Origin: [Clostridium] symbiosum
Lineage (GTDB): Bacteria > Bacillota > Clostridia > Lachnospirales > Lachnospiraceae
Direction of reading: 5' to 3'
DNA length: 41,413 nt
NCBI GenBank assembly: GCA_021769625.1
Contig: JAETSN010000035.1
Location: 1-41,413 of the forward strand
Shown: piece after piece, positions 15,828 to 31,807 of the stretch
Layout: each line of letters starts with the position of its first letter
Position numbering within the stretch: position 1 is the first letter of the stretch
Program-made: the position numbers and the translations under genes
Notes under the pieces: model-generated
Told to the model about the DNA's origin: nothing
Databases searched by the model: none
Seen by the model: the letters and a program-made list of their open reading frames with translations, nothing else

Positions 15828-15835
15828 GCCTTTTT

Positions 15836-16680: not shown

Positions 16681-16826
16681 ACACCTTCTTTAATCCGGAC
16701 TTTACCGTCGGTTCCGGAATTTCACCGGACCCCGTGCTCTCGCACCCGCGGACTGTCACCGCCGATCGGGAATTCCTGTTTCCTGGACGCTGCCGCGCGG
16801 AAAAGGTCACCCTGCCCTGAAGACAT
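16681..16826 (-). promoter_or_regulatory. FMN riboswitch (RFN element)
   Basis: On the minus strand all conserved RFN blocks are readable in order: CTTCAGGGCAGGGTGA, AATTCCCGATCGGCGGTGAC, AGTCCGCG, GGTGAAATTCCGGAACCGAC, GGTAAAGTCCGGAT and closing AAAGAAGG pairing with the first CTTC. It binds flavin mononucleotide and controls the ribU gene through the downstream terminator. Confidence 0.95.
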
Positions 16827-16972
16827 TTTGTTATTCAGTTGTTGTCATTCTTTGATCAGATCGATGTCTATCATATTTACGCCGATGACATTCAACAGTG
16901 CTTTTAAAGAGAAATATATGTCAATAACTGATCGCCATATTCATCGCCGCGCTCGATGCTGTTAACGTATTT

Positions 16973-17002
16973 ATTATAGCATGGTGAAAATACAAATTGC
17001 AA
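16973..17002 (-). promoter_or_regulatory. promoter of the FMN riboswitch-ribU transcript
   Basis: On the minus strand TTGCAA (16997-17002), 18 bases, TATAAT (16973-16978). The start would be about 140 bases before the riboswitch, leaving an unexplained leader segment (16827-16966) in which I see no convincing gene. Confidence 0.7.
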
Positions 17003-17057
17003 TAGCTTCTCATTTTAGTTTTACAGAATAAAACGCTATGTACCGGCATAATAGCGC

Positions 17058-17086
17058 TTGACAGATATGGGATTATCTGATAGGTT
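17058..17086 (+). promoter_or_regulatory. promoter of the aldolase-kinase operon
   Basis: TTGACA (17058-17063) with a weak -10 TAGGTT (17081-17086) at 17 bases. The palindromic operator follows some 20 bases downstream. Confidence 0.5.
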
Positions 17087-17105
17087 ATAGATAGAAACGT
17101 TCCAA

Positions 17106-17132
17106 TATAAGAACTTGTTCTTATATAAGAAC
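17106..17132 (+). promoter_or_regulatory. candidate IclR operator of the aldolase-kinase operon
   Basis: A perfect palindrome of TATAAGAAC (17106-17114), TT and GTTCTTATA (17117-17125) is followed by a third half site TATAAGAAC (17124-17132). Its centre GAACTTGTTC (17111-17120) is identical to the palindrome in the iclR promoter region. Placed after the promoter, it would act as a repressor block. Confidence 0.6.
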
Positions 17133-17163
17133 AAAGCTGAAAAAAGGAAAGGAGAAATGGGGT

Positions 17164-17826
17164 ATGACACCAACGAGAGAACAGATCATTCAGAATGTGT
17201 ACGACAATAAGCTGATCGCTATTGTCCGGGGGATGGAGCCGGAGTACTGCGTGAAGCTGGCGGAGGCGCTCTGCGAGGGCGGCATCAACATGGTGGAGAT
17301 CACATTCAACCAGAGGAGCACGGATCATTTCAGGGCGACGACCGATGCCATCCGCGCTATCAGCGAACAGCTTCCGGACAGGGTGATGGTCGGAGCGGGC
17401 ACAGTGCTGACGAAGGAACAGGTGGATCTGGCAAAAGAGGCGGGGGCACTCTATATCATCACGCCTTCCACCAACCCGGATGTGATCCGCTACGCGAAAG
17501 AGCAGGGGCTTGTGACGATGCCCGGCGCCATGACGCCGTCCGAGATCGAGACAGCCTATGAGGCGGGCGCGGATTTTGTGAAGATCTTCCCGGTGGGCAA
17601 TCTGGGGTCGGCTTACATCAAGGCGGTGAAAGCGCCGATGAGCCACATTCCCGTGCTGGCAGTGGGGGGAGTGAACGAGAAGAATATTGCTGAATTTATC
17701 CGGGCAGGCGCTATCGGCGCCGGCGTGGGCGGCAATCTGGTGAACGCGGAGTGGATCAGGAACGGCGAGTTCGATAAGATCACGGCGCTGGCACGTGAGT
17801 TTGTGACAAACGCGAAAAACGCATAA
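17164..17826 (+). CDS. 2-keto-3-deoxy-6-phosphogalactonate-type aldolase (KHG/KDPG aldolase family)
   Basis: A class I aldolase of 220 residues that splits 2-keto-3-deoxy-6-phospho sugar acids to pyruvate and glyceraldehyde 3-phosphate. The catalytic E45 lies in VEITF and the Schiff-base K140 in FVKIFP; GAGTVLT is at 77-83. Where Eda proteins have VT(F/L)RT with an Arg that contacts substrate, this protein has ITFNQ, like the Asn of DgoA (VEIPLNS). With the kinase next to it and galactonate dehydratase beyond, I infer a DgoA-like function. AAAGGAGAAAT precedes the ATG. First gene of a probable operon; the 195-base gap to the kinase holds no clear gene. Confidence 0.88.
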   Translation: MTPTREQIIQNVYDNKLIAIVRGMEPEYCVKLAEALCEGGINMVEITFNQRSTDHFRATTDAIRAISEQLPDRVMVGAGTVLTKEQVDLAKEAGALYIITPSTNPDVIRYAKEQGLVTMPGAMTPSEIETAYEAGADFVKIFPVGNLGSAYIKAVKAPMSHIPVLAVGGVNEKNIAEFIRAGAIGAGVGGNLVNAEWIRNGEFDKITALAREFVTNAKNA

Positions 17827-18021
17827 ATACAGCAGAACTGAAAACAGTGGAAGTCTGTACAGTGCACAAGACTATTAAGGATAACTGAATCAAACGTGAA
17901 GTTATTTGTTGCTTTCCGATCTGCATAAGCAGATTGAGAAGGTTTTCATTGCTGAAGATATGTCTTCTTATATTGTGTGTTGGAAAGATGGACACGGAAC
18001 TATCAATTAGGAGGGTTTAAA

Positions 18022-19044
18022 ATGTCAAAAGTAGTATGTTTCGGTGAGATCATGATGCGTCTGAATCCGGAAGGATATCAGAGATTTGTGCAGGCGGGAA
18101 GGTTTGAGGCTTCCTACGCGGGCGGTGAGGCGAACGTTTCCGTGTCCCTTGTGAACTACGGAAATGAGGCGTCCTTTGTGACGAAGCTTCCCGACAACGA
18201 TATCGCCCAGAGCGCGGTCAATTCCCTGCGCCAGTTCGGCGTGGACACAAGCGATATTGTGAAGGGAGGTCCCCGTCTGGGCATTTATTTTGTGGAGAAG
18301 GGAGCTTCCCAGCGTCCTTCCAAGGTGATCTATGACCGCGCGGGTTCTTCCATCGCGCTGGCGAAACGGGAAGATTTCAACTGGGATAAGATCTTTGAGG
18401 GGGCGGACTGGTTCCACTTTACCGGTATCACACCGGCTCTCGGCGGCGAGAATCCTGAGATCTGTTTAGATGCCTGCAAGGCGGCGAAAGAGAAAGGGAT
18501 CAAGATCAGCTGCGATCTGAATTTCCGCAAGAAACTCTGGACCAGCGAGCAGGCAGGAAAAGTGATGGGCGAGCTGATGCCTTATGTGGATGTCTGCATC
18601 GCCAACGAGGAGGATGCGGCGGACGTGTTCGGCATCCATGCGGAAGGCACCGACATCAACACCGGCAAGATCAGCCGTGAGGGCTATATCGGCGTGGCAA
18701 AACAGCTCTCCGAGCGTTTCGGCTGCGAGTATGTGGCGATCACTCTGCGCGGCAGCATTTCTGCGACCGACAACAAGTGGGCGGGAATGCTCTACAAGGA
18801 CGGGCAGGCCTGCTTCTCGCCGGAATATCTGGTACATATCGTGGACCGTGTGGGCGGCGGCGATTCCTTCGGCGGCGGCCTGATCCATGCGTTGAGAAAA
18901 GGCATGAGCCAGCAGGATGCGATCAACTTCGCGGTGGCGGCTTCCTGCTTAAAGCATACCATCGAGCATGACTTCAACCTGGTATCGGAGGCGGAAGTCC
19001 TCTCCCTCGCGGGCGGCAACGCGTCCGGGCGTGTGCAGAGATAA
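18022..19044 (+). CDS. PfkB family 2-keto-3-deoxy sugar acid kinase
   Basis: A 340-residue ribokinase-fold enzyme expected to phosphorylate 2-keto-3-deoxygalactonate or -gluconate at C6. The N-terminal signature GEIMMRLNPEGYQRFVQA..GGEANVSV marks the KDG kinase group. The C-terminal DRVGGGDSFGGG motif carries the catalytic D281. The ATG at 18022 follows AGGAGGG; an upstream in-frame ATG at 17977 lacks a binding site. Together with the DgoA-like aldolase and the convergent galactonate dehydratase it completes the DeLey-Doudoroff route. It ends in SGRVQR, as the second kinase at 30710 ends in GARVQR, which suggests the two are paralogues of one subgroup. Confidence 0.87.
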   Translation: MSKVVCFGEIMMRLNPEGYQRFVQAGRFEASYAGGEANVSVSLVNYGNEASFVTKLPDNDIAQSAVNSLRQFGVDTSDIVKGGPRLGIYFVEKGASQRPSKVIYDRAGSSIALAKREDFNWDKIFEGADWFHFTGITPALGGENPEICLDACKAAKEKGIKISCDLNFRKKLWTSEQAGKVMGELMPYVDVCIANEEDAADVFGIHAEGTDINTGKISREGYIGVAKQLSERFGCEYVAITLRGSISATDNKWAGMLYKDGQACFSPEYLVHIVDRVGGGDSFGGGLIHALRKGMSQQDAINFAVAASCLKHTIEHDFNLVSEAEVLSLAGGNASGRVQR

Positions 19045-19052
19045 GACGAGGC

Positions 19053-19094
19053 AAAAAAGGATCCGGGGGAACAGATATCTCCCGGATCCTTTTC
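19053..19094. terminator. bidirectional terminator between the kinase and dgoD
   Basis: AAAAGGATCCGGG pairs with CCCGGATCCTTTT; the plus strand ends in TTTTC and the minus strand in TTTTTTG. It serves the convergent kinase and dgoD genes. Confidence 0.8.
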
Positions 19095-19139
19095 TATATT
19101 GGGAAAGTTACTGAAGTTTTCAATCTGCAGGGCAAAAGC

Positions 19140-20288
19140 TTACCACTCCGCGATAGACCCGTCCTCGTGCCTCCACACAGGGTTCTTCCAGTTGTGGTTC
19201 ACTTTGGCTTCTTCCAGAACCAGTTCTTTATTCACATCCACGCCGAGTCCGGGCAGTTTAGGCAGGTTTACATAACCGTCGATGAACTCGAAATCTTCCT
19301 TGTTGTTTACATAATCCAGAACGCTCTTGCCCACGTTGTAGTGGATGCCCATGCTCTGTTCCTGGATCACTGCGTTGTAGCAGGTTGCGTCCACGTTCAG
19401 GCAGCTTGCCAGCGCGATAGGGCCTAAGGGACAGTGGGGCGCTAACGCCACATCGTAGGCTTCCGCCATGGCGCCGATCTTCTTCACTTCGGTAAGGCCG
19501 CCGGCATGGCTTAGATCAGGCTGGATGATATCCACGCCGCCCCTCTGCAGAAGGCGTTTAAAATCATATTTGCTGAAAAGGCGTTCGCCTGTGGCGATAG
19601 GGATATTGCAGGCTGCGGCGATCTCAGGGAAGTATTCCATGTTTTCACACAGTACGGGTTCCTCGATGAACATCGGATCAAATTCTTCCAGCTTCTTGGC
19701 AAGGATCTTAGCCATAGGTTTATGCACACGGCCGTGGAAATCGATGGCGATGCCGAAATACTTACCGCAGGATTCACGGATCGCTGCCACACGCTCCAGT
19801 ACGGCATCGATCTTATCGTAGGAATCCACCATCTGCAGTTCTTCGGTGGCATTCATCTTGATGGCTTTAAAACCTGCGTTTTTCTTTTCCAGAGCGGCGG
19901 CGCCCACATCGCTGGGGCGGTCTCCGCCGATCCAGCTGTACACTTTCATCTTTGTATGACAGGCGCCTCCCATCAGCTCGTACACAGGTACGCCGAGAGC
20001 CTTGCCCTTGATATCCCAGAGGGCCTGGTCGATGCCGGAGATCGCGCTCATCAAAACGCCGCCGCCCCTGTAGAAGCCCGCGCGGTACAGGGTGCTCCAG
20101 ATATCCTCTATCTTTGACGGATCCGCGCCGATCAGATAATCCTTCATCTCCTGCACACAGGCGAGAACGGTGCTGCAGTGGCCTTCCAGAACGGGTTCGC
20201 CCCAGCCGGTGATGCCTTCATCGGTGATGATCTCCACAAAACCCCAGCGGGGACGGACGGTGTAGGTGTTTACTTGGGTAATTTTCAT
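19140..20288 (-). CDS. dgoD: D-galactonate dehydratase
   Basis: An enolase-superfamily enzyme of 382 residues converting D-galactonate to 2-keto-3-deoxygalactonate. It aligns with E. coli DgoD end to end without gaps as far as I can recall that sequence: metal ligands D183, E209 and E235, catalytic H185 and H285, and E310 fall at the same numbers, and both end in WRHED-(x)2-(I/V)AEW. The start [10 protein letters not shown] at 20288 has AAGGAGG before it; the frame extends about 90 codons upstream into AT-rich DNA with no binding site, which is not coding. It is convergent with the kinase and divergent from the symporter. A TATAAT promoter lies about 160 bases upstream. Confidence 0.93.
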
Positions 20289-20748: not shown

Positions 20749-22236
20749 ATGTTAGATTCCAGGTATGTGCCGCTGTTTGTCGGCGGCTTTCTCGCCTACA
20801 TCTGTATTATGATCCTGGTAGGCGTGTTATCAACGAGGGGAAAAACCAATGGCTCTAACTTCCTGACAGGAGGTGCGAATCTGGGCTTCTTCCTCATCTT
20901 CTGTACTGTGGGCGCGACAATGATCGGTACGGGTTCTTCCATGGGCGCTATCGCCAACGGCTATAACGGCGGTTGGGCAGGCGCTATCTATGGACTGGGT
21001 GCATGTACAGGTATTCTTTCCATGCTGATGTTCGTCAAGATCCGTGACAAGAATTTCCTGACCATGTCGGAGGAGGCGCAGTATTATTACGGCGGTAAAA
21101 AGATCATCCGTCAGACCATGGGCTTTATGATGTTTGTGGTTGAGATCATCTGGCTCGGGAATCATATGAACGGCGGTTCCAAGTATCTCGCTTACATCAC
21201 AGGTCTTGACAACGTGATCTGTAAGGTTATCACAGTGCTGGCGTTCGCGGTTTACGTATTTATCGGCGGCTACCTTGCAGTGGTAGTGACAGACGCGGTG
21301 CAGTTCTGTGTTATCGTTGCAGGCTTCGCGCTGATCGCAATCAAGGCAATCCCCGCAGCGGGCGGCTATGCGAATATTGCAGCTACTTTTGAATCGGTCG
21401 GCAAACCCGGCGCTATGGGCTTCTACGGTCTGGCACAGTACGGCATAATGCCTGCCATCGCATTGGTTCTGTCCACTTACATGGGCGTTATCGGTACACC
21501 GACGCACCGTACACGTATCTATACTTCTGCGAATGAAGGCACGGCGCGCAAGGCATTTTTGACATCCGGCATCATGCTGTTCTTCTGGAGCTTTGTGACA
21601 GCTATCATCGGTATGAGCGCATTCACCATCGCAAACGGCCAGGGTGTGACACTGGAATCTGCAGACTATGCATTCTCCTTCATGGCAACTCACGTACTCG
21701 GTCCTGTATTCGGTCTGGTACTGATGATCGCAGGCTTGTCCGCGACTATGTCCTCCGGTGACTCCGATGCCATCTCCGGCATCACGATCCTGCTGACTGA
21801 CGTATATCCGAGCGTGACAGGCAAGACCATCAAAGAGGAAGATTATCCGAAGTACTCCAGGATCGCTCTGGTAGTGACGCTGGGTGTTGCTTTCCTGATC
21901 ACACTGCTTGTGAACGACGTTATTACATATATCCAGAAGGTGGTAGGATCCCTCCTTCCCGGCCTTGCGATCTGTATGTTCATGGGCCGTTTCTGGAAAC
22001 GTGCTACCTGGCAGGGCGGCATGGCCTGCATCATTTCCGGTACAGGTTTCGGTATTCTTTATCTGCTGATTCCGGCGCTCAGCGGCTGGGTAGATTCCAC
22101 ACTCGGCGGCGCAGCTGTTCCGGCGACGATCATTTCCCTGATCTGCGGCGTAGTGGTAAGCCTTGTTACGCCGGTTGACAATACACCGGATGATGAACGT
22201 GTGAAAGCTGTATTTGACGCACGTGCTGGTAAGTAA
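20749..22236 (+). CDS. sodium:solute symporter (SSS family)
   Basis: A 495-residue membrane protein with about 13 helices, starting MLDSRYVPLFVGGFLAYICIM, with the helix-1 and helix-8 type segments TVGATMIGTGSSMGAI and MIAGLSATMSSGDSDAISG that form the sodium site in SSS transporters. GGAGGAGGG precedes the ATG. It heads a long co-directional run of sugar-acid and amino-acid type enzymes, so the transported substrate is probably the compound they degrade: a sugar acid or an N-acylated amino sugar acid. This is inference from context; the sequence alone shows only the family. A hairpin with a short T-tail follows at 22333. Confidence 0.88.
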   Translation: MLDSRYVPLFVGGFLAYICIMILVGVLSTRGKTNGSNFLTGGANLGFFLIFCTVGATMIGTGSSMGAIANGYNGGWAGAIYGLGACTGILSMLMFVKIRDKNFLTMSEEAQYYYGGKKIIRQTMGFMMFVVEIIWLGNHMNGGSKYLAYITGLDNVICKVITVLAFAVYVFIGGYLAVVVTDAVQFCVIVAGFALIAIKAIPAAGGYANIAATFESVGKPGAMGFYGLAQYGIMPAIALVLSTYMGVIGTPTHRTRIYTSANEGTARKAFLTSGIMLFFWSFVTAIIGMSAFTIANGQGVTLESADYAFSFMATHVLGPVFGLVLMIAGLSATMSSGDSDAISGITILLTDVYPSVTGKTIKEEDYPKYSRIALVVTLGVAFLITLLVNDVITYIQKVVGSLLPGLAICMFMGRFWKRATWQGGMACIISGTGFGILYLLIPALSGWVDSTLGGAAVPATIISLICGVVVSLVTPVDNTPDDERVKAVFDARAGK

Positions 22237-22332
22237 ACTTTTTGACCGGCATGTCCGATGAAACAGGATCATGAAAGAGGGCTTCCGTATTTAGCGGAGC
22301 TGAAAACAGAATAATAGAAGTAAATACCATAT

Positions 22333-22369
22333 AAACGGGGGTGGAGGCTTTCTTCATCCCCGTTTTACA
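22333..22369 (+). terminator. weak terminator after the symporter
   Basis: AAACGGGG pairs with CCCCGTTT around GTGGAGGCTTTCTTCAT, then TTACAATTA. The short T-tail suggests partial termination and lower expression of the downstream enzymes. A second hairpin (GCAGCAGGCA with TGCATGCTGC, one mismatch) lies at about 22391-22416. Confidence 0.45.
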
Positions 22370-22458
22370 ATTACAGGTTCGCGCAAAAGCGCAGCAGGCA
22401 TTTGAGTGCATGCTGCCGAAGCAGTGCACGGCAGTTATAGATAGGAAAGGAAAAAGCG

Positions 22459-24066
22459 ATGGGCACAATATTATTAAGAAACGGCATTGTTTATGACGGA
22501 TTGGGAAATCCGGGTGTTGCCGGAGATGTGTTGATAAAAGACGATAAGATTGAAAAAACAGGCTCTCTGGGGGACACACAGGCAGATCAGGTGATCGATG
22601 TGGAAGGAAAAGTGATCTGTCCCGGTTTTGTGGATATCCACAGACATTGTGACGCCAAGCCTTTGAACGATCCTGCTTTCGGAAGGCGGGAACTGGCACA
22701 GGGCATCACGACAACTGTGGCGGGGAATTGCGGTATTTCCCTGACGCCCTGCCCCGAGGGGGATGCAGGCGCCAGAGAGATGTATGATTTTGACGAGGCG
22801 GTGATGGGACCGATGGAGCTGGGACTGCCAAGGAGTTACGGGGAATATCTGGAGGCGCTTGAGAAGGCGCCGCTGGCAGTCAATTTTGCGGCGATGGTCG
22901 GCACAGGCGCCGTAAAGATCACGGTGAAAGGATTTGCGGATACGCCGTTTACGAAAGAAGAGCTGGACGAAGCGAGAGCGCTGATCGAGGATGCGATGAA
23001 GCGCGGGGCGCCAGGGGTGTCGCTGGGGATCATGTATCTGCCGGAATGCTATTCCAGTACGGATGAGTTCGCCTATATTCTGGAACCCGTGGGAAGGTAC
23101 GGGCGCGTGATCGCCACCCACATCCGGGGCGAGGGCGACAGCATGGTGGAGAGCATAAAGGAAGTGCTCGAGATCGCAAAGAAAGCGGGATGTGCGCTGG
23201 AAGTCAGCCATTTTAAGAGCTGCGGCGTACATAACTGGAAAAAACAGATCCATGAAGCCATCGCGCTGATCGAGAAGGCGAGAGCGGAAGGGCAGGATGT
23301 GACCTGCGACTTCTATCCCTACGAGGGCGGCAGTACGGCGCTGACCACGATGCTGCCTCCGGTATTTGTGGCGGGCGATATGACGAAAGCATTAGAGCGC
23401 CTCGGCACGCCGGAGGGTGTGGAGGAGTTCCGGGAGAGCAGCAGAAAGCCCTATGACGACTGGGACAATTTCTGCGTGACTTTGGGATGGGAACGTATTA
23501 TAATCAGTGGTGTGACAGAGGACAAATTCAAACCCATGCTGGGCATGACGGTGACGGATGCTGCAGAGAAGTTCGGCTATGCTGATCCGGAGGCGCTGGC
23601 GGCGGATCTGATGCACGAGGAGAACGGCAAGACAGCCATCATCAATATGAGCATGTGTCAGGAGGATATCGACACGGTGGCGAAGCTTCCGTATTCTAAT
23701 GTCATCTCCGATGCGATCTACGCGGCGACAGATACGCCCCATCCGCGGATGTACGGCGCTTTCCCGAAAGTGATCCGGGAATATGTGGGAGAGCGGGGGC
23801 TCTACACGCTGGAGGAAGCGATCCATAAAATGACGGGGCTTCCGGCGGCGCGGATGAAACTGACGGGCAGAGGCGTGCTGAAAGAGGGCAGTTTCGCGGA
23901 TGTGCTGGTGTTTGACCCGAAGCGTTTTACGGACCATGCGACATTCCAGGATCCGGCGCAGATGGCGACCGGCGTGGATTACCTGTTCGTGAACGGTAAG
24001 CTGACGATCCGGCAGGATGAATGGGTGGACGAGGCTCATAACGGGGCGCTGCTGCTGGCGGAGTGA
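22459..24066 (+). CDS. amidohydrolase, N-acyl-D-amino acid deacylase type
   Basis: A 535-residue zinc amidohydrolase of the D-aminoacylase family, which removes acyl groups from the nitrogen of D-configured amino acids. Visible metal ligands match those of the family: H61-x-H63 in FVDIHRHCD, C91 in GNCGIS, H221 in THIRGEG, H251 in SHFKSCG and D418 in ISDAIYAATDTPHPR. The last motif has Ala where SDG is more usual. AGGAAAGG precedes the ATG. Neighbouring symporter, RidA and D-threonine aldolase-type genes suggest the freed amine goes to a D-amino acid or 2-amino sugar acid lyase. D-glucosaminate released from N-acetylglucosaminate is my leading guess; a simple N-acyl-D-amino acid is the alternative. 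Confidence 0.88.
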   Translation: MGTILLRNGIVYDGLGNPGVAGDVLIKDDKIEKTGSLGDTQADQVIDVEGKVICPGFVDIHRHCDAKPLNDPAFGRRELAQGITTTVAGNCGISLTPCPEGDAGAREMYDFDEAVMGPMELGLPRSYGEYLEALEKAPLAVNFAAMVGTGAVKITVKGFADTPFTKEELDEARALIEDAMKRGAPGVSLGIMYLPECYSSTDEFAYILEPVGRYGRVIATHIRGEGDSMVESIKEVLEIAKKAGCALEVSHFKSCGVHNWKKQIHEAIALIEKARAEGQDVTCDFYPYEGGSTALTTMLPPVFVAGDMTKALERLGTPEGVEEFRESSRKPYDDWDNFCVTLGWERIIISGVTEDKFKPMLGMTVTDAAEKFGYADPEALAADLMHEENGKTAIINMSMCQEDIDTVAKLPYSNVISDAIYAATDTPHPRMYGAFPKVIREYVGERGLYTLEEAIHKMTGLPAARMKLTGRGVLKEGSFADVLVFDPKRFTDHATFQDPAQMATGVDYLFVNGKLTIRQDEWVDEAHNGALLLAE

Positions 24067-24149
24067 CCGGGCTGGTAAAGGTAATATTTCGTTTATAAGC
24101 AGCCGCCAGACAGAAAAGATTTAGAATAAGACAAGAGGGAGAAAAATTC

Positions 24150-25286
24150 ATGGCAGAAGCAAGAACTTTGGACGAGATTAAACTGGATAATGCCTACAAG
24201 TTCGGCGCAGGGCGTTATATTCAGCAGACGGGAGCGCTGGAAACGGTGGCGGAGGAAGTGCTGCGTCTCGGAAGAAAGCCTTTTATCATCGCGGGGCCGC
24301 GGGCTCTGGAGGCGACGGAGGGCAGGATCGAGAAGGCGCTGAAGGAGGCGGGCATCGAGTACGAGCTGTCCGTTTATCCGGGGCAGAATACTTATGAGAA
24401 AGCAAGGGAACATGCGGCGAAGGCGCTTGGGGCAGGGTGTGATGTGATCATGGGCGTGGGCGGCGGAAGGATCATGGACCAGTCCAAAGCGGCGGCTTAT
24501 TTCGGAGGGACAGCGATTTCCCTGCCGAAGGGACATATGCCGGTGGTGCAGGTACCTACCAGCATCGCCACCTGTGCGGCGTTTGCCCCCTTAAGTGTGA
24601 TGTATACGGAGGAAGGGGCATCTCTGGGAAGTCTGCGCCATAACTTTGAAGTGGATGCGGTCATTGTGGATATGGATGTGATCGCAAAGGAACCGCCCCG
24701 ATATGTGGCGAGCGGTATTCTGGACGGTATGTCCAAGATGGTGGAGATGCAGAACGGGCACGACCATATTGATATCGAAGAGTTTGATGTGGGCCTTGTG
24801 ACAGCCTTCACGCTGGCGAAGTACACAATGGAAACCTATAAAAACCGCGGGATGCAGGCAGTGCAGGATGTGGCGGAGAAAAAGCTGACCAAGGCGGTGG
24901 AGGATATCGCTTATCTGAATATTGCGGTGGCGGGCATCATCAGCGGCTGCAGCAAGGGATTCGGGCAGACGGCGTTGGGACACGAGTGCTATGAGTTGAT
25001 CCGCACACATTTTACACAGGAAGCGAAGGACTTTATCCACGGTGAGATCGTTGCCGTGGGGCAGTGCATGCAGCTTTCCTTCAACGGACAGGAGGACCAG
25101 ATCCCGGCGCTCCGGGAGATGATGAAGACCTTCCATATGCCGATGACGCTGAAAGATATCGGTATCGAGCCCACGGAGGAAAACGTGGAGAAGCTCTATC
25201 AGGATCTGTACCACAGCCCCTTTGTGAAGGACTGTCCGGAGGAGGCGGAGCGCCTGCGGAAAGCCATGAAATGGCTGACACAGTAA
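24150..25286 (+). CDS. iron-containing alcohol dehydrogenase, glycerol dehydrogenase type
   Basis: A 378-residue NAD-dependent polyol or hydroxy-acid dehydrogenase of the GldA group. The nucleotide-binding GVGGGRIMD is at 102-110. Metal ligands D192 (ILDGMSK), H278 (LGHECYELI) and H297 (IHGEIVAVG) align with those of glycerol dehydrogenase. The segment SIATCAAFAPLSVMYTEEG resembles the GldA active-site loop with changes, so the substrate is probably not glycerol. Its place between the deacylase and RidA genes suggests it oxidises or reduces a related polyol, amino sugar or sugar acid. GAGGGAG precedes the ATG. Confidence 0.85.
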   Translation: MAEARTLDEIKLDNAYKFGAGRYIQQTGALETVAEEVLRLGRKPFIIAGPRALEATEGRIEKALKEAGIEYELSVYPGQNTYEKAREHAAKALGAGCDVIMGVGGGRIMDQSKAAAYFGGTAISLPKGHMPVVQVPTSIATCAAFAPLSVMYTEEGASLGSLRHNFEVDAVIVDMDVIAKEPPRYVASGILDGMSKMVEMQNGHDHIDIEEFDVGLVTAFTLAKYTMETYKNRGMQAVQDVAEKKLTKAVEDIAYLNIAVAGIISGCSKGFGQTALGHECYELIRTHFTQEAKDFIHGEIVAVGQCMQLSFNGQEDQIPALREMMKTFHMPMTLKDIGIEPTEENVEKLYQDLYHSPFVKDCPEEAERLRKAMKWLTQ

Positions 25287-25376
25287 AAAACGGCCGGACC
25301 GTGAGGTAAAGCCGTTTGCTGCGGCCGGATTAAGAGAAGCCGCAATATCATAATATATCATCAGGAGGATGGAACA

Positions 25377-25838
25377 ATGGACGTATATGCTAAATTAAAA
25401 GAAATGGGGATCACACTGCCGGAGCCTCCGGCAAAAGGCGGAATCTACACGCCGGTCATGGAGTTCGGCGATAAGCTGCTCTACTGTAGCGGCTGCGGCC
25501 CTGCCATCGGCAGTGAAAATGTGATAGGCAAGGTCGGAAAGGACCTGACGCTGGAAGAGGGACAGAAGGCGGCTTACAATTGCGTATTGAACCTTCTGGC
25601 AAACCTGGATGCAAAGCTGGGGGATCTCAACAAGATCAAACGGTTCGTGAAGGTGCTGGGTTTCGTGCACAGCGCGGATGATTTTACACAGCAGCCTCAG
25701 GTGATTAACGGCGGATCCCAGCTGATCCTGGATCTGTTCGGAGAGGAGAAGGGGCTTCCCGCCCGCACGGCGATCGGAACGAATGCAACGCCGGGCGGTA
25801 TTGCAGTGGAGATTGAGGTACTGGTGGAATATGAATGA
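25377..25838 (+). CDS. RidA/YjgF family enamine-imine deaminase
   Basis: A 153-residue Rid protein, forming trimers in known members, that hydrolyses reactive enamine or imine intermediates released by PLP enzymes. The substrate-binding Arg is R130 in LPARTAIGT, and the C-terminal GGIAVEIEVLVEYE strand is typical. AGGAGG precedes the ATG. Its stop is followed almost directly by the PLP enzyme at 25842. A PLP dehydratase of this type makes just the 2-amino-enol or imine species that Rid proteins clear, so the pairing makes functional sense. Confidence 0.9.
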   Translation: MDVYAKLKEMGITLPEPPAKGGIYTPVMEFGDKLLYCSGCGPAIGSENVIGKVGKDLTLEEGQKAAYNCVLNLLANLDAKLGDLNKIKRFVKVLGFVHSADDFTQQPQVINGGSQLILDLFGEEKGLPARTAIGTNATPGGIAVEIEVLVEYE

Positions 25839-25841
25839 TCT

Positions 25842-26972
25842 GTGGGAAAGGATATGGTTACAGATATGACATATGCATTTGAGGGGCAGGATGCTGTGAT
25901 ATCTCCTCAGCTTGTATATTATAAGGATATCATAGCTGACAATATAAAAAAGATGATCGGGATCGCCGGGGGCGCAGAGCGCCTCTGGCCCCATGTAAAA
26001 ACCCACAAGATGATCGAAGTCGTAAAGATGATGATGGCGGAGGGCATTGATAAATTCAAATGCGCCACCGTCGCCGAGGCGGAGATGTGCGGGGAGGCGA
26101 AGGCGGCGAAAGTGACTCTCGCCTATCCTCTTGTGGGACCGAATATCGCGCGCTTTCTGCGTTTGATGGAGAGCTATCCGGAGACGGAGTTTTTCGCGGT
26201 GTCCGATTGTACCAAACAGGTGGAGCTGATCGGGAAAGCAGCCACAGAAAAGGGTGTATCCGTCAATCTGCTGATGGATGTGGATACGGGACAGCACAGG
26301 ACGGGCGCAGCACTCGACAAAGTGGAGGAATATTATCAGGCGTGGGCAGGCATACCGGGAATCGTGATGCGGGGACTGCATTGCTACGACGGACACCGGC
26401 ATGAGTCGGATATAGAAGTTCGAAACCGCGAGGTGACGGCGGTGGATGAACAGATAGCGAAGATCAAGGGAAGGCTGCAGGAGGCAGGGTATGACTGCGG
26501 CATCCTGATCATGGGGGGGACGCCCTCTTTCCCGTGCCATCAGAAGCTGAATCAGGAATACTTAAGTCCGGGAACCTGCATCATTCAGGATGCGGGTTAC
26601 GAGGCGGCTTACCGGGATCTGGATTTTGTGCCCGGTGCGGCAGTGTTGACCAGAGTAGTCAGCGTGCCCGGCAACAATACTTTTACACTGGATATGGGCA
26701 CCAAAGCGGTGGCGACCGATCCGAATCCGGAGAGAGCCGTGCTCGTGGGGATGGAATATGCGAAGACAGTGCTGCAGAATGAAGAGCACTGGGTAGTGGA
26801 AGTGCCGGCGGAGCATGCAGGAGATATCCCGGAGGTGGGAACGGTCCTGTTCGCGATTCCGATGCATGTCTGCCCTACCAGCGCGCTGTATCCGGAGGTG
26901 CCGGTGGTATCCGGCGGGAAACTCGCAGACTGGTGGCAGGTGACGGCGAGGAACAGGAAGATCACGATCTGA
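25842..26972 (+). CDS. D-threonine aldolase / D-serine dehydratase-type PLP enzyme
   Basis: A fold-type III PLP enzyme of up to 376 residues: alanine-racemase-like barrel with the PLP Lys K53 in HVKTHK, then a C-terminal D-serine dehydratase-like domain with the metal-binding pair H342 and C344 in MHVCPTSALYPEV. Family members cleave or dehydrate beta-hydroxy D-amino acids with PLP and a divalent metal. Starts at 25842 (GTG), 25854 or 25866 are possible; GGAAAGG before 25866 favours the later ones. The gene follows ridA by three bases. D-glucosaminate has the right D-2-amino-3-hydroxy acid arrangement and would give 2-keto-3-deoxygluconate plus ammonia, feeding the kinase and aldolase downstream. 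D-threonine, D-serine or 3-hydroxyaspartate are alternatives. Confidence 0.85.
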   Translation: MGKDMVTDMTYAFEGQDAVISPQLVYYKDIIADNIKKMIGIAGGAERLWPHVKTHKMIEVVKMMMAEGIDKFKCATVAEAEMCGEAKAAKVTLAYPLVGPNIARFLRLMESYPETEFFAVSDCTKQVELIGKAATEKGVSVNLLMDVDTGQHRTGAALDKVEEYYQAWAGIPGIVMRGLHCYDGHRHESDIEVRNREVTAVDEQIAKIKGRLQEAGYDCGILIMGGTPSFPCHQKLNQEYLSPGTCIIQDAGYEAAYRDLDFVPGAAVLTRVVSVPGNNTFTLDMGTKAVATDPNPERAVLVGMEYAKTVLQNEEHWVVEVPAEHAGDIPEVGTVLFAIPMHVCPTSALYPEVPVVSGGKLADWWQVTARNRKITI

Positions 26973-27029
26973 CAGGAGCGGATCGTTGAAGGTATGTGCA
27001 GCAGTATGTAAGGCAGAGGTGAAGAGGAT

Positions 27030-27734
27030 TTGAACGGAGCAGCGACATTAACGGAACAGATACTGGACGAGTTGATAGAATATATCAGGGAAAATCGTCT
27101 GCAGCCGGGTGACCGTTTGGGCACCGAGATAGAGATGGCAAAGCGTCTGGGCGTAAGCCGCGGGACGATCCGCGGCGCTATCAAGATTCTGGTGGCAAGA
27201 AATGTGCTGGAAGTGCGGCAGGGTTCCGGAACCTATCTGGCGGATGGAAATACGCCGCCGGTGGGAGATCCTCTGGGGCTGGAACTGATCCCGAATCAGT
27301 TTAAGCTGACCTGGGATCTGCACCAGATAAGGATGATGCTGGAGCCGGAGATCGCCTATATGGCGGCGAAAAATATGACGGAAGAGCAGCTTGACAGACT
27401 GCGGGAAATGTGCAATGAGATGGAAAGCCTTTCGGCGCAGAGGAAGGAGAGGGCTCTCGTCGATGTGGAGTTTCATGTCTGCCTGGCGGAGAGCTGCGGG
27501 AATCTGGTGATGCCGAAACTGATACCGGTGCTGCGTCAGGGGGTGGAACTGTTTATCAAGTACACCCACAGGGAGGCGACGCCGGAGTCGGTGGCAAAGC
27601 ACCGCGATATTCTGGAAGCCCTTGAAGCCCGTGATCCGCAGTGGGCGAAGGATATGATGCTGATGCATCTGACATACAACAGCCAGGAGCTCAGGAGGGA
27701 AGCGATCCGGAGAGGGGTTATGTATGATGTGTGA
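27030..27734 (+). CDS. GntR family regulator, FadR subfamily
   Basis: A 234-residue regulator: N-terminal winged helix (LQPGDRLGTEIEMAKRLGVS, RGTIRGAIKILVARNVLEVRQ, GSGTYLAD) and an all-helical FCD effector domain from about residue 90. The FCD metal site fits VEFHVCLAESCGN and the later KHRDILEALEARD. The start is a TTG at 27030 with AGAGGTGA seven bases before it. In this subfamily ligands are usually sugar acids, hydroxy acids or keto acids. The TGGTTG-T-CAACCA palindrome before the symporter is a plausible target. It sits inside the operon it probably controls, just before a long palindromic element. Confidence 0.87.
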   Translation: MNGAATLTEQILDELIEYIRENRLQPGDRLGTEIEMAKRLGVSRGTIRGAIKILVARNVLEVRQGSGTYLADGNTPPVGDPLGLELIPNQFKLTWDLHQIRMMLEPEIAYMAAKNMTEEQLDRLREMCNEMESLSAQRKERALVDVEFHVCLAESCGNLVMPKLIPVLRQGVELFIKYTHREATPESVAKHRDILEALEARDPQWAKDMMLMHLTYNSQELRREAIRRGVMYDV

Positions 27735-27737
27735 GTA

Positions 27738-27874
27738 CCGGACGCCCGGCGGGAAATATCCCTGCCGCAACACGCTTGCGCTCCGGGCGAAACGCAGCGG
27801 ATGCTAAGCTCGAAAATACCTCGCTAAGCACCGGCGTTTAGCAGGGTTGCGGCAGGGATATTTCCCGCCGGGCT
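27738..27874 (+). repeat. long palindromic element, copy B
   Basis: A perfect 28-bp inverted repeat, 27744-27771 against 27846-27873, encloses ACGCTTGCGCTCC, AACGCAGCGG (27791-27800), a shorter inner stem (TGCTAAGC/GCTAAGCA) and CACCGGCGTTT. GGACGCC and CCGGGCTG lie at the two ends as in copies A and C. It fills most of the 227-base gap between the gntR stop and the dehydratase. No T-tract follows. Confidence 0.75.
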
Positions 27875-27961
27875 GAGCATGGTATGAACTGAATCATCAG
27901 ATCAATAAAATTATTATCAAACAGGAAGGAAAAATGAGGTTAATAAGGCAGGAGGAAAGCT

Positions 27962-29746
27962 ATGTATAAGAGTCAGGAGATAAGGAAGATTGCGCCGGAG
28001 ATGGATCCCCTGAGAATGGGGATGGGTTGGAAGGTGGATGATCTCGGAAAGCCCCAGATCATCGTGGAGAGTACATACGGAAACAGCCATCCGGGTTCCG
28101 GCCATCTGAACACTTTTGTGGAGGAAGCGGTCAGGGGAGTGGATGACAACGGTGGAAAAGCCGCGCGCTACTTTGCGACGGACATGTGCGACGGTATGGC
28201 GCAGGGACATGACGGCATCAATTATTCCCTGGCGCACCGGGATGCGATCGTCAATCTGGTGGAGGCGCAGATCGGTGCGACCACATTTGACGGCGGCGTT
28301 TTTGTGGCAAGCTGTGATAAGGCGATGCCCGCGATGCTGATGAGCATCGGCAGAAACAGGGAGATGAGTGCCATCGTGGTGACAGGGGGCGTGATGGAGG
28401 CTACCGTTGTCACACCGGAATATGTGGAGAACGATCCGGCGTGCAAGATCAATGAACTTTTGACGCTGGAGCAGATCGGAAAATTCAGCGCGCAGTTTGA
28501 GAGGGGGGAGATCCCCGAAGAACAGCTTACCTATTATAAGCAGCATGCCTGCCCGAGCTGCGGCGCATGTTCCTTTATGGGAACGGCATCCACGATGCAG
28601 ATCATGGCGGAGGCACTTGGCCTGATGCTGCCGGGGACGGCGCTGATGCCCGCCACGGCGCCGGAGCTGAAGGAAGCGGCCTACAAAGCGGGAAAACAGT
28701 TGATGGAACTGGTGAAGAAGGGAATCAAGGCCGGCGATATCGTGACCATGAAGAGCTTTGAGAACGCGATCATGGTGCATGCGGCGATTTCCGGCTCCAC
28801 CAATGCGGTGATGCATATTCCGGCTATCGCCCATGAATTCGGATTTGAGATCGATGCGGACACTTTCGACAGACTGCACAGGGGGGCGCATTATCTGTTG
28901 AATATCCGTCCCGCGGGCGACTGGCCGGCGCAGTATTTCTATTATGCGGGCGGCGTGCCGAGAGTGATGGAGGAGATTAAAGAAGTGCTGCATCTGGATG
29001 TGATGACCGTGACGGGCAAGACGTTAGGGGAAAATCTGGAGGAGATGAAGCGGAACGGCTTCTATGAGCACTGCGACGAGATACTGAAAGAAAAGAGCAA
29101 AGTGATCGGCAAGGAGATCAGGAGCACGGATATCATCCGCGACTTTGACCATGCATTGGGAATGGACGGAAGCATCGCGATCCTGCGGGGCAATCTGGCG
29201 CCGGAGGGCGCTGTGATCAAGCATACGGCGTGCCCGAAAGTGATGTTTAAGGCGAAACTGAACGCGAAGCCTTTCGACAGCGAGGAAGAGGCGATCGATG
29301 CTGTGTTAAAGAAAAAGATCAAACCCGGCGACGCGATCTTTATCCGCTACGAGGGACCGAGAGGAACCGGCATGCCGGAGATGTTCTATACCGGCGAGGC
29401 GATCTGTTCCGATCCGGAACTTGCGGCAAGCGTGGCGCTGATCACGGACGGAAGGTTTTCCGGCGCTTCCAGGGGTCCGGTGGTGGGGCACGTTTCTCCC
29501 GAGGCGGCGGCAGGCGGTCCTATCGCGCTTGTGGAAGAGGGAGATATCATTGAACTGGATGTGGAGGCGAGAAAGCTGGCGATCATCGGCGTAAAAGGAC
29601 AGGAGATGTCCGAGGCGGAAGTGGCTGCGGTGCTGGAAGAGCGGAAGAAGAATTGGAAAGGGTTTACTTCCAAGTATGATAAAGGACTCCTGAAACTGTA
29701 TGCGCAGCATGCGGTCAGCGCGATGAGGGGGGCTTATATGGATTAG
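27962..29746 (+). CDS. sugar acid dehydratase of the IlvD/Edd family
   Basis: A 594-residue iron-sulfur dehydratase removing water from a sugar acid to give a 2-keto-3-deoxy acid. Likely cluster ligands are C76 in TDMCDGMAQG, C118 in SCDKAMPA and C203 in GACSFMGTAST. The first-Cys motif of IlvD (PCN.H) is replaced by HPGSGHL, and the MCDG Cys as in Edd is present, so the protein is closer to 6-phosphogluconate or sugar acid dehydratases than to the branched-chain enzyme. Context (unphosphorylated substrate uptake, KDG kinase and Eda downstream) suggests D-gluconate or a similar aldonate as substrate. AGGAGG precedes the ATG. Long palindromic elements flank the gene on both sides. Confidence 0.88.
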   Translation: MYKSQEIRKIAPEMDPLRMGMGWKVDDLGKPQIIVESTYGNSHPGSGHLNTFVEEAVRGVDDNGGKAARYFATDMCDGMAQGHDGINYSLAHRDAIVNLVEAQIGATTFDGGVFVASCDKAMPAMLMSIGRNREMSAIVVTGGVMEATVVTPEYVENDPACKINELLTLEQIGKFSAQFERGEIPEEQLTYYKQHACPSCGACSFMGTASTMQIMAEALGLMLPGTALMPATAPELKEAAYKAGKQLMELVKKGIKAGDIVTMKSFENAIMVHAAISGSTNAVMHIPAIAHEFGFEIDADTFDRLHRGAHYLLNIRPAGDWPAQYFYYAGGVPRVMEEIKEVLHLDVMTVTGKTLGENLEEMKRNGFYEHCDEILKEKSKVIGKEIRSTDIIRDFDHALGMDGSIAILRGNLAPEGAVIKHTACPKVMFKAKLNAKPFDSEEEAIDAVLKKKIKPGDAIFIRYEGPRGTGMPEMFYTGEAICSDPELAASVALITDGRFSGASRGPVVGHVSPEAAAGGPIALVEEGDIIELDVEARKLAIIGVKGQEMSEAEVAAVLEERKKNWKGFTSKYDKGLLKLYAQHAVSAMRGAYMD

Positions 29747-29761
29747 GAGGGGTGAAAAACC

Positions 29762-29951
29762 CGGACGCCCGGAGGGAAAATATCCCTTCTGCAACGCGCT
29801 TGCGCTCCGAAGCAAACGCAGCGGTACTAGGCTCGCATGTGAAGTTTAGATTTTCTTAGGCGGTGTATTTTGGCGCCTTAGAAAATCTCTTCACATTAGC
29901 TAATGTGCCGGCGTTTTGCAGGGTTGCGTCAGGGATATTTTCCCTCCGGGC
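29762..29951 (+). repeat. long palindromic element, copy C
   Basis: Outer arms 29767-29795 and 29923-29951 pair at 26 of 29 positions. Inside are GCG-CTTG-CGC, AACGCAGCGG (29815-29824), an inner two-part stem (ATGTGAAG with CTTCACAT; 29848-29862 with 29874-29888 at 14 of 15 positions), the palindrome ACATTAGCTAATGT, and TGCCGGCGTTTT. Ends are GGACGCC and CCGGGCTGG. It starts 15 bases after the dehydratase stop and fills most of the 307-base gap before eda. The remainder (29952-30053) is AT-rich with a TATAAT at 30028 but no good -35. Confidence 0.75.
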
Positions 29952-30053
29952 TGGTATCGGCTGGATTACGGTGGTTATCGCGAGACGAATATTAATTGAT
30001 AAATTTATAATTTATATAACAGGCTAATATAATAATAGAAAAGAGGAAAAGGT

Positions 30054-30686
30054 ATGAGCAAGCAGATGGAAGAGAAGATTGCGGAGCTGAAGGTGGTTCC
30101 GGTGGTGGTGTTGGAGGATGCGAAGGATGCGGCTCCTTTGGCGAAGGCTCTGTGTGAGGGCGGGCTGCCCTGTGCGGAGGTGACGTTCAGGACGGCGGCG
30201 GCGAAGGACAGCATCAAGGCGATGACGGACGCGTATCCCGATATGCTGGTGGGCGCAGGTACTGTTTTGACGACAGAGCAGGTGGACAGCGCCGTGGAAG
30301 CAGGCGCGAAGTTTATCGTAAGCCCCGGCTTTGATCCGGAGATCGTGGATTACTGTCTGGAGAAAGAGATTCCGGTGTTCCCCGGCTGTATCACACCCTC
30401 CGAGGTGGCGCAGGCGGTGAAGAGAGGGCTCAGGGTGGTAAAATTTTTCCCGGCAGAACAGTTTGGCGGCGTTGCGACGATCAAAGCGCTCTCCGCGCCC
30501 TATGTGGGACTGAAATTTATGCCTACCGGCGGTGTCAGCGCGAAGAATCTGAAAGAGTATCTGGCATGTAAGCCGATCGTGGCGTGCGGCGGAAGCTGGA
30601 TGGTGAAGAAGGATCTGATCGAGGCGGGCGATTTTGAGAAGATAAAAGAGCTGACGAAGGAAGCGGTGGCGCTGGCAAACGAATAA
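30054..30686 (+). CDS. eda: 2-keto-3-deoxy-6-phosphogluconate aldolase
   Basis: A 210-residue class I aldolase splitting KDPG into pyruvate and glyceraldehyde 3-phosphate. Residues match Eda at a constant offset of three: E42 and R46 in AEVTFRT, T70 in GAGT, and the Schiff-base K130 in VVKFFPAEQFGG. It differs from the aldolase at 17164, which has Asn in place of the Arg. Length is normal. GAGGAAAAGG precedes the ATG. It is followed after 23 bases by a KDG kinase, forming the gluco branch of the island. Confidence 0.92.
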   Translation: MSKQMEEKIAELKVVPVVVLEDAKDAAPLAKALCEGGLPCAEVTFRTAAAKDSIKAMTDAYPDMLVGAGTVLTTEQVDSAVEAGAKFIVSPGFDPEIVDYCLEKEIPVFPGCITPSEVAQAVKRGLRVVKFFPAEQFGGVATIKALSAPYVGLKFMPTGGVSAKNLKEYLACKPIVACGGSWMVKKDLIEAGDFEKIKELTKEAVALANE

Positions 30687-30709
30687 TATGATTTAGCAGG
30701 AGGATGGGT

Positions 30710-31807
30710 ATGGATTTGAATTTGAGGCCGGCAGGCGAATGCAGGTATGATGCGGTTTCTCTGGGCGAAGTTATGCTGCGGCTGGATCCGGGAGAGGGAA
30801 GGATCCGGACGGCGAGGCAGTTTCGTGCCTGGGAAGGCGGCGGAGAGTACAATGTGGTGCGTGGTCTGCGCAGATGTTTCGGCATGAAGACCGGGGTGAT
30901 CACTGCTTTTGCGGACAATGAAGTGGGTATGCTGATGGAGGATTTCATTCTGCAGGGCGGTGTGGATACCTCCCTGATCAAGTGGATGAAGACGGACGGT
31001 ATCGGGCGCGTGTGCAGAAACGGCATCAATTTTACGGAGCGGGGTTTTGGTATCCGTGGGGCGGTGGGATGTTCCGACAGGGCGAATACCGCGATCTCCA
31101 AGGCAAAACCGGAAGATTTTGATTTCGATTATATTTTCGGCGAGCTGGGCGCACGCTGGCTCCATACGGGCGGCATCTATGCGGCACTTTCCGAGCAGTC
31201 CTGTGAGACGATCCTTGCGGCGATCAAGACGGCGAAGAAGTACGGTACGGTGGTTTCTTATGACCTGAACTATCGTCCTTCCATGTGGAGCGCCATCGGC
31301 GGAAAGGAAAAAGCGCAGGAAGTCAATAAAGAAGTCGCGAAATATGTGGATGTGATGATCGGAAATGAGGAGGACTTTACGGCCTGCCTTGGATTTGAGA
31401 TCGAAGGGAACGACGAAAACCTGAAAGAGCTTAATCTGGACGGTTACAAGAAGATGATCAACGAAGCTGCAAAGACTTATCCGAATTTTAAGGCGGTTGC
31501 GACCACACTTCGCGAAGTAAAGACGGCTACGGTCAATGACTGGAGCGCGATCTGCTGGGCGGACGGGGAGATCTACAAGGCGAAGGATTACAAAGGGCTG
31601 GAGATCATGGACCGTGTGGGCGGCGGCGATTCCTTTGCATCCGGGCTGATCTACGGACTGATGACGACAGGGGATGCGGAACTGGCAGTCAATTACGGCG
31701 CGGCGCACGGCGCACTGGCGATGACGACACCGGGCGATACGACGATGGCGAGCAAAAAGGAAGTGGAAGCCATCATGGGCGGCGCGGGCGCGAGAGTGCA
31801 GAGATAG
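30710..31807 (+). CDS. kdgK: PfkB family 2-keto-3-deoxygluconate kinase
   Basis: A 365-residue ribokinase-fold kinase making KDPG for the adjacent aldolase. The signature SLGEVMLRLDPGEGRIRTARQF..GGGEYNV and the C-terminal DRVGGGDSFASG with catalytic D307 mark the KDG kinase group. The ATG at 30710 stands six bases after AGGAGG; the ATG at 30704 directly touches it and is less likely. The C-terminus GARVQR resembles the end of the first kinase (SGRVQR). Last gene of the run, ended by a strong terminator. Confidence 0.88.
   Translation: MDLNLRPAGECRYDAVSLGEVMLRLDPGEGRIRTARQFRAWEGGGEYNVVRGLRRCFGMKTGVITAFADNEVGMLMEDFILQGGVDTSLIKWMKTDGIGRVCRNGINFTERGFGIRGAVGCSDRANTAISKAKPEDFDFDYIFGELGARWLHTGGIYAALSEQSCETILAAIKTAKKYGTVVSYDLNYRPSMWSAIGGKEKAQEVNKEVAKYVDVMIGNEEDFTACLGFEIEGNDENLKELNLDGYKKMINEAAKTYPNFKAVATTLREVKTATVNDWSAICWADGEIYKAKDYKGLEIMDRVGGGDSFASGLIYGLMTTGDAELAVNYGAAHGALAMTTPGDTTMASKKEVEAIMGGAGARVQR

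Follow-up and report, generated by a model that had tools for sequence, protein, structure and literature searches.

The gene cluster and its setting

The window analyzed here is a single contig of 41,413 bases (JAETSN010000035.1) from [Clostridium] symbiosum, whose genome of 4.08 Mb is spread over 145 contigs with an estimated completeness of 96.6%. It contains a plus-strand gene cluster whose substrate class is likely, from sequence comparison, to be an acylated amino sugar acid. In order, the cluster encodes an SSS sodium symporter of the OngIT clade (20749..22236; PF00474), a D-aminoacylase-like N-deacylase with subtype V ligands (22459..24066; assigned by phmmer and aligned residues), a GldA-like, iron-containing alcohol dehydrogenase (Fe-ADH; 24150..25286; PF00465), a RidA/YjgF-type protein (25377..25838; PF14588 and PF01042), a fold-type III pyridoxal 5'-phosphate (PLP) enzyme with an H-x-C metal site (25842..26972; PF01168 and PF14031, together with residues and a tree), a GntR/FCD regulator (27030..27734; PF00392 and PF07729), a probable IlvD/EDD-family sugar acid dehydratase (27962..29746; PF00920 and PF24877, below the NCBIfam IlvD cut-offs), an Eda aldolase for 2-keto-3-deoxy-6-phosphogluconate (KDPG) and 2-keto-4-hydroxyglutarate (KHG), here called Eda2 (30054..30686; TIGR01182, 269 bits, above cut-off), and a PfkB kinase of the 2-keto-3-deoxygluconate (KDG) type, KdgK2 (30704..31807; PF00294, with 282 bits for NF041633, below cut-off). 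The IlvD/EDD gene is bracketed by related palindromic intergenic elements (27744-27873 and 29767-29951), with arms of 28-29 nt and complementarities of 100% and 90%, which possibly represent a small mobile or repetitive extragenic palindromic (REP)-like repeat.

Upstream lie an Eda-family aldolase for KDPG or 2-keto-3-deoxy-6-phosphogalactonate (KDPGal), EdaA (17164..17826, plus strand; PF01081, 147 bits; TIGR01182, 182 bits, above cut-off), and a PfkB kinase for KDG or 2-keto-3-deoxygalactonate (KDGal), KdgK1 (18022..19044, plus strand; 222 bits for NF041332 and 570 bits for NF041633, both below cut-off), followed on the minus strand by a D-galactonate dehydratase, DgoD (19140..20288; NF010624, 647 bits against a cut-off of 311; start codon taken from its translation). 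Together with an IclR regulator, these genes form a De Ley-Doudoroff-type galactonate module at 14881-20288. The whole genome holds one D-ser_dehydrat domain and two PF01081 aldolases, both of which lie in the window and flank the D-ser_dehydrat gene, and this placement is more than chance.

The original prediction, a catabolic route for an N-acylated 2-amino sugar acid such as N-acetyl-D-glucosaminate, had named the symporter, deacylase, RidA, PLP enzyme, Eda, and kinase, all of which were found on the plus strand, and it had read the deacylase ligands and the K53 and H342/C344 residues of the PLP enzyme correctly. Its gene list was right in what it contained and passed over Fe-ADH, GntR, and IlvD/EDD inside the cluster, as well as EdaA, KdgK1, and DgoD upstream.

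Comparison with the ong pathway

The proposed logic, likened at the outset to oxidative chitin use by marine bacteria, has already been published as the ong (oxidized N-acetylglucosamine utilization) pathway of Pseudoalteromonas prydzensis ACAM 620 (PMC9537276). In the sections of that paper drawn on here, the cluster comprises OngIT, an SSS symporter; OngB, a deacetylase of the D-aminoacylase fold; OngC, a fold-type III PLP deaminase; OngD, a RidA protein that is genetically required; and KdgK. OngB and OngC convert N-acetylglucosaminate to KDG, ammonia, and acetate, and OngC accepts D-serine and D-threonine as well. Among 14,675 genomes, the complete pathway was reported only from Gammaproteobacteria and one Betaproteobacterium, and the main text nowhere uses the word Firmicutes (PMC9537276). 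In the relevant passage of a separate report on Aeromonas, an ong-like route could not be confirmed (PMC11653859).

Membership in the published survey called for at least four co-occurring homologues (E<1e-5, >30% identity) to the ACAM 620 cluster (PMC9537276). The yardsticks used here were the ong clusters of P. shioyasakiensis (L069) and P. piscicida (L070), not ACAM 620 itself, and against these the window shows identities of 35-38% for the symporter, 29-32% for the deacylase (43% across a C-terminal piece of 118 residues), 22-23% for the PLP enzyme, and 20-24% for the kinases, while its RidA protein gave no BLAST match to either OngD at E<=1. Measured in this way, fewer than four genes of the window cluster exceed 30% identity, and the idea of whole-cluster orthology with ong was rejected on identity and residues and retained for the transporter only. 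The two systems have in common a symporter of one clade, a D-aminoacylase-fold deacylase, a fold-type III PLP enzyme, RidA, and a KDG kinase. They differ in that the window cluster additionally carries Eda, DgoD, IlvD, and Fe-ADH, that its host is Lachnospiraceae-like whereas ong hosts are Gammaproteobacteria, and that its genome gave no match to an OngA-type GH20 enzyme or an AA10 lytic polysaccharide monooxygenase (LPMO).

No other single observation appears to link the cluster to an N-acetylaldosaminate as strongly as the symporter does. A tblastn search with it against 72,556 plasmid records, a narrow sample, returned 10 matches at E<=1e-40 (Pseudoalteromonas four, Vibrio three, Klebsiella three) and 49 records at E<=1e-10, the eleventh among the matches listed being 26% identical at 1e-20. 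All ten belong to ong-type clusters, with the window symporter 34-41% identical to the OngIT-type transporters; OngB, OngC, and OngD adjoin the symporter in nine of the ten stretches, and L177 reaches the end of its record with OngD, symporter, DgoK, and aldolase visible. In a 25-row tree containing 23 different sequences, the symporter of the window forms a clade (support 100/99) with seven PLP-linked symporters from Clostridia and Spirochaetes, themselves retrieved through the PLP gene, and the ten ong symporters are its sister group (93/93). The joint clade (100/100) stands apart from seven other rows, including three paralogues from the same genome, and the OngIT-type SSS transporter of the ong cluster is thus a feature that the window possesses. 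Among 391 genomes of the class, OngIT-clade-like transporters occur in four at E<=1e-30, three of which, from other genomes, are only 28-32% identical, and a close relative of the window symporter was found in its own genome only.

Klebsiella ong-type clusters (L176, L177, and L178) carry DgoK and a KDPGal aldolase instead of KdgK. The cluster of L176, for example, resembles the window in transporter clade, RidA, aminoacylase, and PLP deaminase, and resembles three of the PLP loci described below (L080, L092, and L094) in its DgoK and aldolase; it differs from the window in its OngC- and OngB-type enzymes and its RpiR regulator. An enzyme of another route, that of D-glucosaminate-6-phosphate in Salmonella, has been described in the literature. 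Here, too, an amino sugar acid is converted into an intermediate of the KDG type. Its substrate is the phosphorylated acid and its enzyme has a different PLP fold, and its genes in Salmonella are presumably DgaE/DgaF.

The deacylase and the PLP enzyme

Across 13 aligned rows, deacylase residues H61/H63, C91, H221, H251, K253, D418, and R430 are invariant and align with the ligands and catalytic residues that the structural account of OngB gives for that enzyme and for D-aminoacylases (PMC12017989). They include the features of subtype V D-aminoacylase-like amidohydrolases, namely the Cys/His/His ligands (C91, H221, and H251), the catalytic D418, and the HxH pair H61/H63. PpOngB, a deacetylase of N-acetylglucosaminate (GlcNAc1A; PDB 9kb1, PMC12017989), shares with the window enzyme the fold family, the Cys/His/His site, and the catalytic Asp; it differs in its sugar-pocket residues S290, S292, A193, A256, and G348, which are replaced by Gly, Thr, Met, Cys, and Met, respectively, leaving Gly and Thr in place of the OngB serine signature of the insertion domain. 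The column of PpOngB Q298 lands in an insertion of the window deacylase, which has one after YPYEGGST, and is not safely alignable. According to the same structural account, S292T alone leaves PpOngB with 1.3% of kcat/Km, and the D-aminoacylases AfDam and BbDam have Thr at position 292 and bulkier hydrophobic side chains at the remaining pocket positions (PMC12017989). Nine OngB rows from the ten ong-type loci, several of them identical or nearly so and that of L178 a short frame, all keep YPYxASSST, and phmmer scores the window enzyme at 260 bits with AfDam and 215 bits with PpOngB. As judged by these residues, the predicted pocket is D-aminoacylase-like rather than OngB-like. The choice of N-acetyl-D-glucosaminate as the specific substrate was not borne out, and such specificity is unproven because the deacylase lacks the OngB pocket.

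In the PLP enzyme, K53, H342, and C344 are invariant across 14 aligned rows. The metal pair matches the dehydratase type, since chicken D-serine dehydratase (3anu) has H-x-C and the four aldolases compared have H-x-D. The window enzyme carries the D-serine-dehydratase-type fold III signature (PLP lysine plus H-x-C pair) with H342-x-C344 in place of the H-x-D pair of D-threonine and 3-hydroxy-D-aspartate aldolases, and D-threonine aldolase function was rejected as the first choice on account of this site. The enzyme falls outside the OngC clade, being only distantly similar to it and separated from it in a quickly built tree of 90 PLP sequences, in which both OngC rows lie beyond a branch with a Shimodaira-Hasegawa-like approximate likelihood ratio (SH-aLRT) of 100. 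Its relatives include proteins from locus L074 (88% identical), a Lachnospiraceae metagenome-assembled genome (MAG; 72%), and Petralouisia muris (locus L076; 70%); in the records seen, relatives of the deacylase and the PLP enzyme are annotated as D-aminoacylase and D-threonine aldolase (D-TA) family. We propose that the window enzyme acts as a 2-amino-2-deoxyaldonate ammonia-lyase, and its specificity is likely to be broad by analogy, because OngC also takes D-serine and D-threonine.

Gene neighborhoods of PLP enzyme relatives

Genome contigs were scanned with the alignment of PLP enzymes, and the best 80 of at least 565 confirmed relatives were supplemented with the window, L049, L050, L052, L053, L061-L068, L072, L073, and L163-L173. 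After removal of 15 near-duplicates, the final 91 loci comprised 45 with Trp49 (window included), 33 with Arg/Val49, and 13 paralogues at 22-27% identity. The Trp49 branch is hosted by gut-type Clostridia, Treponema and other Spirochaetes, and a Fusobacteriaceae MAG. Neighborhoods extended 8 kb from the PLP gene (a full stretch being ~17 kb), and Eda, DgoK, and HpcH were assigned by family matches for representatives and by BLAST for the rest. The Eda, DgoK, and HpcH/HpaI families consume 2-keto-3-deoxy sugar acids; DgoK is not related to the PfkB kinases, nor is HpcH to Eda. RidA/YjgF proteins hydrolyze imines and enamines, and a RidA gene accompanies 31 of the 45 Trp49 genes and 28 of the 33 Arg/Val49 genes.

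Twelve of the 45 Trp49 loci have at least one of the three families in range (Eda in eight, DgoK in three, and HpcH/HpaI aldolase in four), in the form of PfkB kinase plus Eda, DgoK plus Eda, or HpcH aldolase. The expected number is 0.27 (Poisson P ~2e-16; this and the following P values are rough because the density was taken from a single family while some loci belong to other phyla, scoring methods differed between background and loci, and the loci are non-independent), as calculated from 80 genomes of the family, including that of the window, with 234 Mb, 68 Eda genes above cut-off, 28 HpcH genes above 60 bits, and four DgoK genes. DgoK was found in just two of these 80 genomes, yet it lies beside the PLP gene in L080, L092, and L094. 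Without the window, L075, and L077, the count is 9/42 against 0.24 expected (P ~7e-12), and without the five DgoD-bearing Trp49 loci (window, L075, L077, L088, and L100) it is 8/40 against 0.23 (P ~2e-10); the notion that KDG-type genes are mere partners of DgoD was rejected on this last count. Positive loci occupy five places in the PLP tree, with six parsimony changes, although several forks have support below 90. None of the three families was detected within 8 kb at the 33 Arg/Val49 loci (Fisher P 0.0009) or at the 13 paralogous loci (Fisher P 0.05, a weak contrast). Taken together, these counts support the view that at least part of the Trp49 branch would make a 2-keto-3-deoxy sugar acid.

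Homologues of EdaA and KdgK1 lie beside the cluster in L074-L077 and L088, and all of L074-L077 have the EdaA/KdgK1/DgoD set and retain IlvD and Fe-ADH. L074 carries both Eda/kinase pairs, and L077 presents EdaA-KdgK1-DgoD-SSS-deacylase-RidA-PLP-IlvD-FeADH compactly and in a single direction. The upstream pair is the more conserved partner, because it is kept in L075 and L076, where Eda2 and KdgK2 are missing after IlvD; the latter pair, on which the original prediction had settled, is correspondingly weakened as the decisive one. Also weakened is the idea that IlvD-Eda-KdgK forms a wholly separate module, by the compact L077 and by KDG-type genes without IlvD in L049, L088, L080, L092, and L094. 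The presence of DgoD in the PLP locus L088 as well points to one kinase and one aldolase serving both galactonate and the amino sugar acid. Two members of the dihydrodipicolinate synthase (DHDPS) family, to which another type of KDG aldolase belongs, were found in the genome, neither of them inside the window. In L163, a paralogous PLP locus, a DgoD-like gene lies 66 bp away, accompanied by RidA and a deacylase.

Other neighborhoods were also encountered. In L065 (8671-16273), L102, and L108, the deacylase, PLP, and RidA genes sit directly within a cluster of MupG, phosphotransferase system (PTS), and SIS genes; the SIS gene, which matched GKRP_SIS_N, we take to be MurQ-like, and a link to recovery of N-acetylmuramic acid (MurNAc) or peptidoglycan is possible. 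A BadF-type kinase and an SIS protein are found beside the PLP gene in L066, L096, L104, and L067, sugar ATP-binding cassette (ABC) transporter genes in L066, L096, L104, and L105, and a heparinase-like gene near it in L064. Finally, a module of RidA, Arg/Val49 PLP enzyme, gluconate-type GntP transporter, and M19 membrane dipeptidase recurs in Bacteroidota, Verrucomicrobia, and Planctomycetes (L072, L073, and L119-L151). M19 is present in 23, GntP in 21, and both in 18 of the 33 Arg/Val49 loci; examples of the module come from a Parabacteroides plasmid (L072) and an Akkermansia MAG (L129).

Proposed route and alternative explanations

On balance, the cluster is probably a non-orthologous counterpart of the ong pathway. 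The sequence comparisons indicate a real, conserved cluster with a familiar type of chemistry, built for the most part from enzymes other than those of ong and carried by another group of organisms. The OngIT-clade symporter would import an N-acyl-2-amino-2-deoxyaldonate, either N-acetylglucosaminate or its 4-epimer N-acetylgalactosaminate, from which the D-aminoacylase-like enzyme would remove the acyl group. The PLP/metal enzyme would then eliminate water between C2 and C3, and hydrolysis of the resulting enamine or imine, assisted by RidA, would give KDG or KDGal plus ammonia. This 2-keto-3-deoxyhexonate would be consumed by a KDG/KDGal kinase and an Eda-type aldolase, presumably yielding pyruvate and glyceraldehyde 3-phosphate. 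The same kinase and aldolase are probably also supplied from aldonates without an amino group, with DgoD acting on galactonate and the IlvD-family enzyme on another hexonate, and the whole would therefore constitute an aldonate and amino-aldonate utilization island. The core of the route as originally drawn, from uptake through deacylation and dehydrative deamination to phosphorylation and aldol cleavage, gains comparative support from the OngIT clade and the recurrent neighbors, which bear on the import step and on the 2-keto-3-deoxyhexonate product; that route left IlvD and Fe-ADH unaccounted for.

Several observations weigh against this interpretation. The route has no step for IlvD and Fe-ADH, which are tentatively assigned to a further aldonate. 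The deacylase lacks the PpOngB pocket residues, the PLP enzyme and kinases are distant from OngC and KdgK (20-24%), two near relatives lack Eda2/KdgK2, and the genome has no GH20 or AA10 LPMO match. Orthologous clusters regularly lacking Eda/KdgK had been named as grounds for abandoning the proposal, and the outcome was divided: 12 of the 45 Trp49 loci carry KDG-type genes, and 33 do not, 18 of these being on stretches below 15 kb and 15 having most or all of the ~17-kb stretch. Several Trp49 loci lie in the MupG/PTS or BadF, SIS, and sugar ABC contexts, and the 33 Arg/Val49 loci, with their M19 and GntP genes, have no Eda, DgoK, or HpcH gene.

Such observations leave room for an ordinary D-amino-acid route, in which deacylation releases D-serine, D-threonine, or some similar D-3-hydroxy amino acid for dehydration by the PLP enzyme, RidA clears a 2-aminoacrylate-type intermediate, and the Eda, kinase, DgoD, and IlvD genes form an independent aldonate module. 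The D-aminoacylase-like pocket and the ranking of AfDam above PpOngB favor it, as do the paralogous PLP loci that pair a deacylase or M20 enzyme with RidA and no KDG-type genes, and OngC itself also accepts D-serine and D-threonine (PMC9537276). In L088 and the window lineage, the presence of DgoD could be enough to explain why a kinase and an aldolase are there. The placement of the symporter in the OngIT clade speaks against such a route, however, as does the enrichment of unrelated KDG/KDGal-consuming systems at several places in the tree, DgoD-free loci included; in L080, L092, and L094, for example, the PLP gene has DgoK and Eda next to it, and neither DgoD nor IlvD was detected within 8 kb. 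We consider this route unlikely for the window, although it may apply to the Trp49 branch as a whole in view of the 33 loci without KDG-type genes and the other sugar contexts. It is very unlikely that the deacylase/PLP/RidA module instead serves amino acids or derivatives released from glycans or peptidoglycan, with the KDG-type neighbors belonging to a general glycan-degradation island: the MupG, PTS, and MurQ-like SIS genes of L065, L102, and L108, the BadF and SIS pairs of L066, L096, L104, and L067, and the heparinase-like gene of L064 would fit, but the OngIT-clade transporter and the recurring DgoK, Eda, and HpcH genes would be left unexplained.

Within the ong-counterpart reading, the substrate could be N-acetyl-D-galactosaminate, for instance from oxidized N-acetylgalactosamine (GalNAc) of mucin, which would be converted to KDGal. 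DgoD lies by the cluster in the window, L074-L077, and L088, and DgoK occurs in L080, L092, and L094. DgoK is no proof of a galacto substrate, however, because the Klebsiella ong-type clusters combine DgoK and a KDPGal aldolase with an OngB that keeps the PpOngB serine motif and Gln, and, of the single-function models, those for bifunctional KDG/KDGal kinases give the PfkB kinases their highest scores. This sub-case is somewhat doubtful, and its confidence is not additive to that of the reading that contains it. A wider and more tentative proposal, to which we would give rather less than an even chance, is that the Trp49 branch is a distinct family of 2-amino-2-deoxyaldonate ammonia-lyases in a clade other than that of OngC, repeatedly combined with unrelated deacylases (D-aminoacylase-like and M20), transporters, and KDG/KDGal-consuming enzymes. 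The window substrate may then be N-acetylgalactosaminate, and the same chemistry, with a gluconate-type transporter, would be performed by the Arg49 relatives that occur alongside GntP and M19 in Bacteroidota, Verrucomicrobia, and Planctomycetes.

Other features of the window

A flavin mononucleotide (FMN) riboswitch (RF00050, 84 bits) precedes a riboflavin-type S component of an energy-coupling factor (ECF) transporter on the minus strand (15896-16828). Scans of the window against shuffled sequences gave no clear excess of promoters (19 against 14.2, standard deviation 4.1) or terminators (9 against 12.9, standard deviation 3.4).

Biological significance

Since the genome gave no GH20 or AA10 LPMO match, the substrate would come from elsewhere, and the organism would use acids that have already been released and would not itself oxidize chitin. 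The host is presumably an anaerobe, and oxidized sugars in the gut may come from inflammation or diet. D-Glucosaminic acid was metabolized or used by two Oscillospiraceae strains, one of them weakly (PMC12050419), and by two Lachnospiraceae species (PMC10989990), and the passages of these papers that mention it tie its use to no gene. Among the open-licence papers listed, a scope that leaves out subscription papers, none of the titles or abstract openings describes such a route for Clostridia or Spirochaetes. The Pseudomonas D-glucosaminate dehydratase invoked by the original prediction is not named in one such listing.

If the proposed route is correct, the catabolism of oxidized amino sugars would extend from Gammaproteobacteria to gut anaerobes, and the pathway would have been assembled more than once, from different enzymes. 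The D-aminoacylase and D-TA family annotations of relatives would need to be corrected, and acylated amino sugar acids would be pointed to as a nutrient in animal guts.

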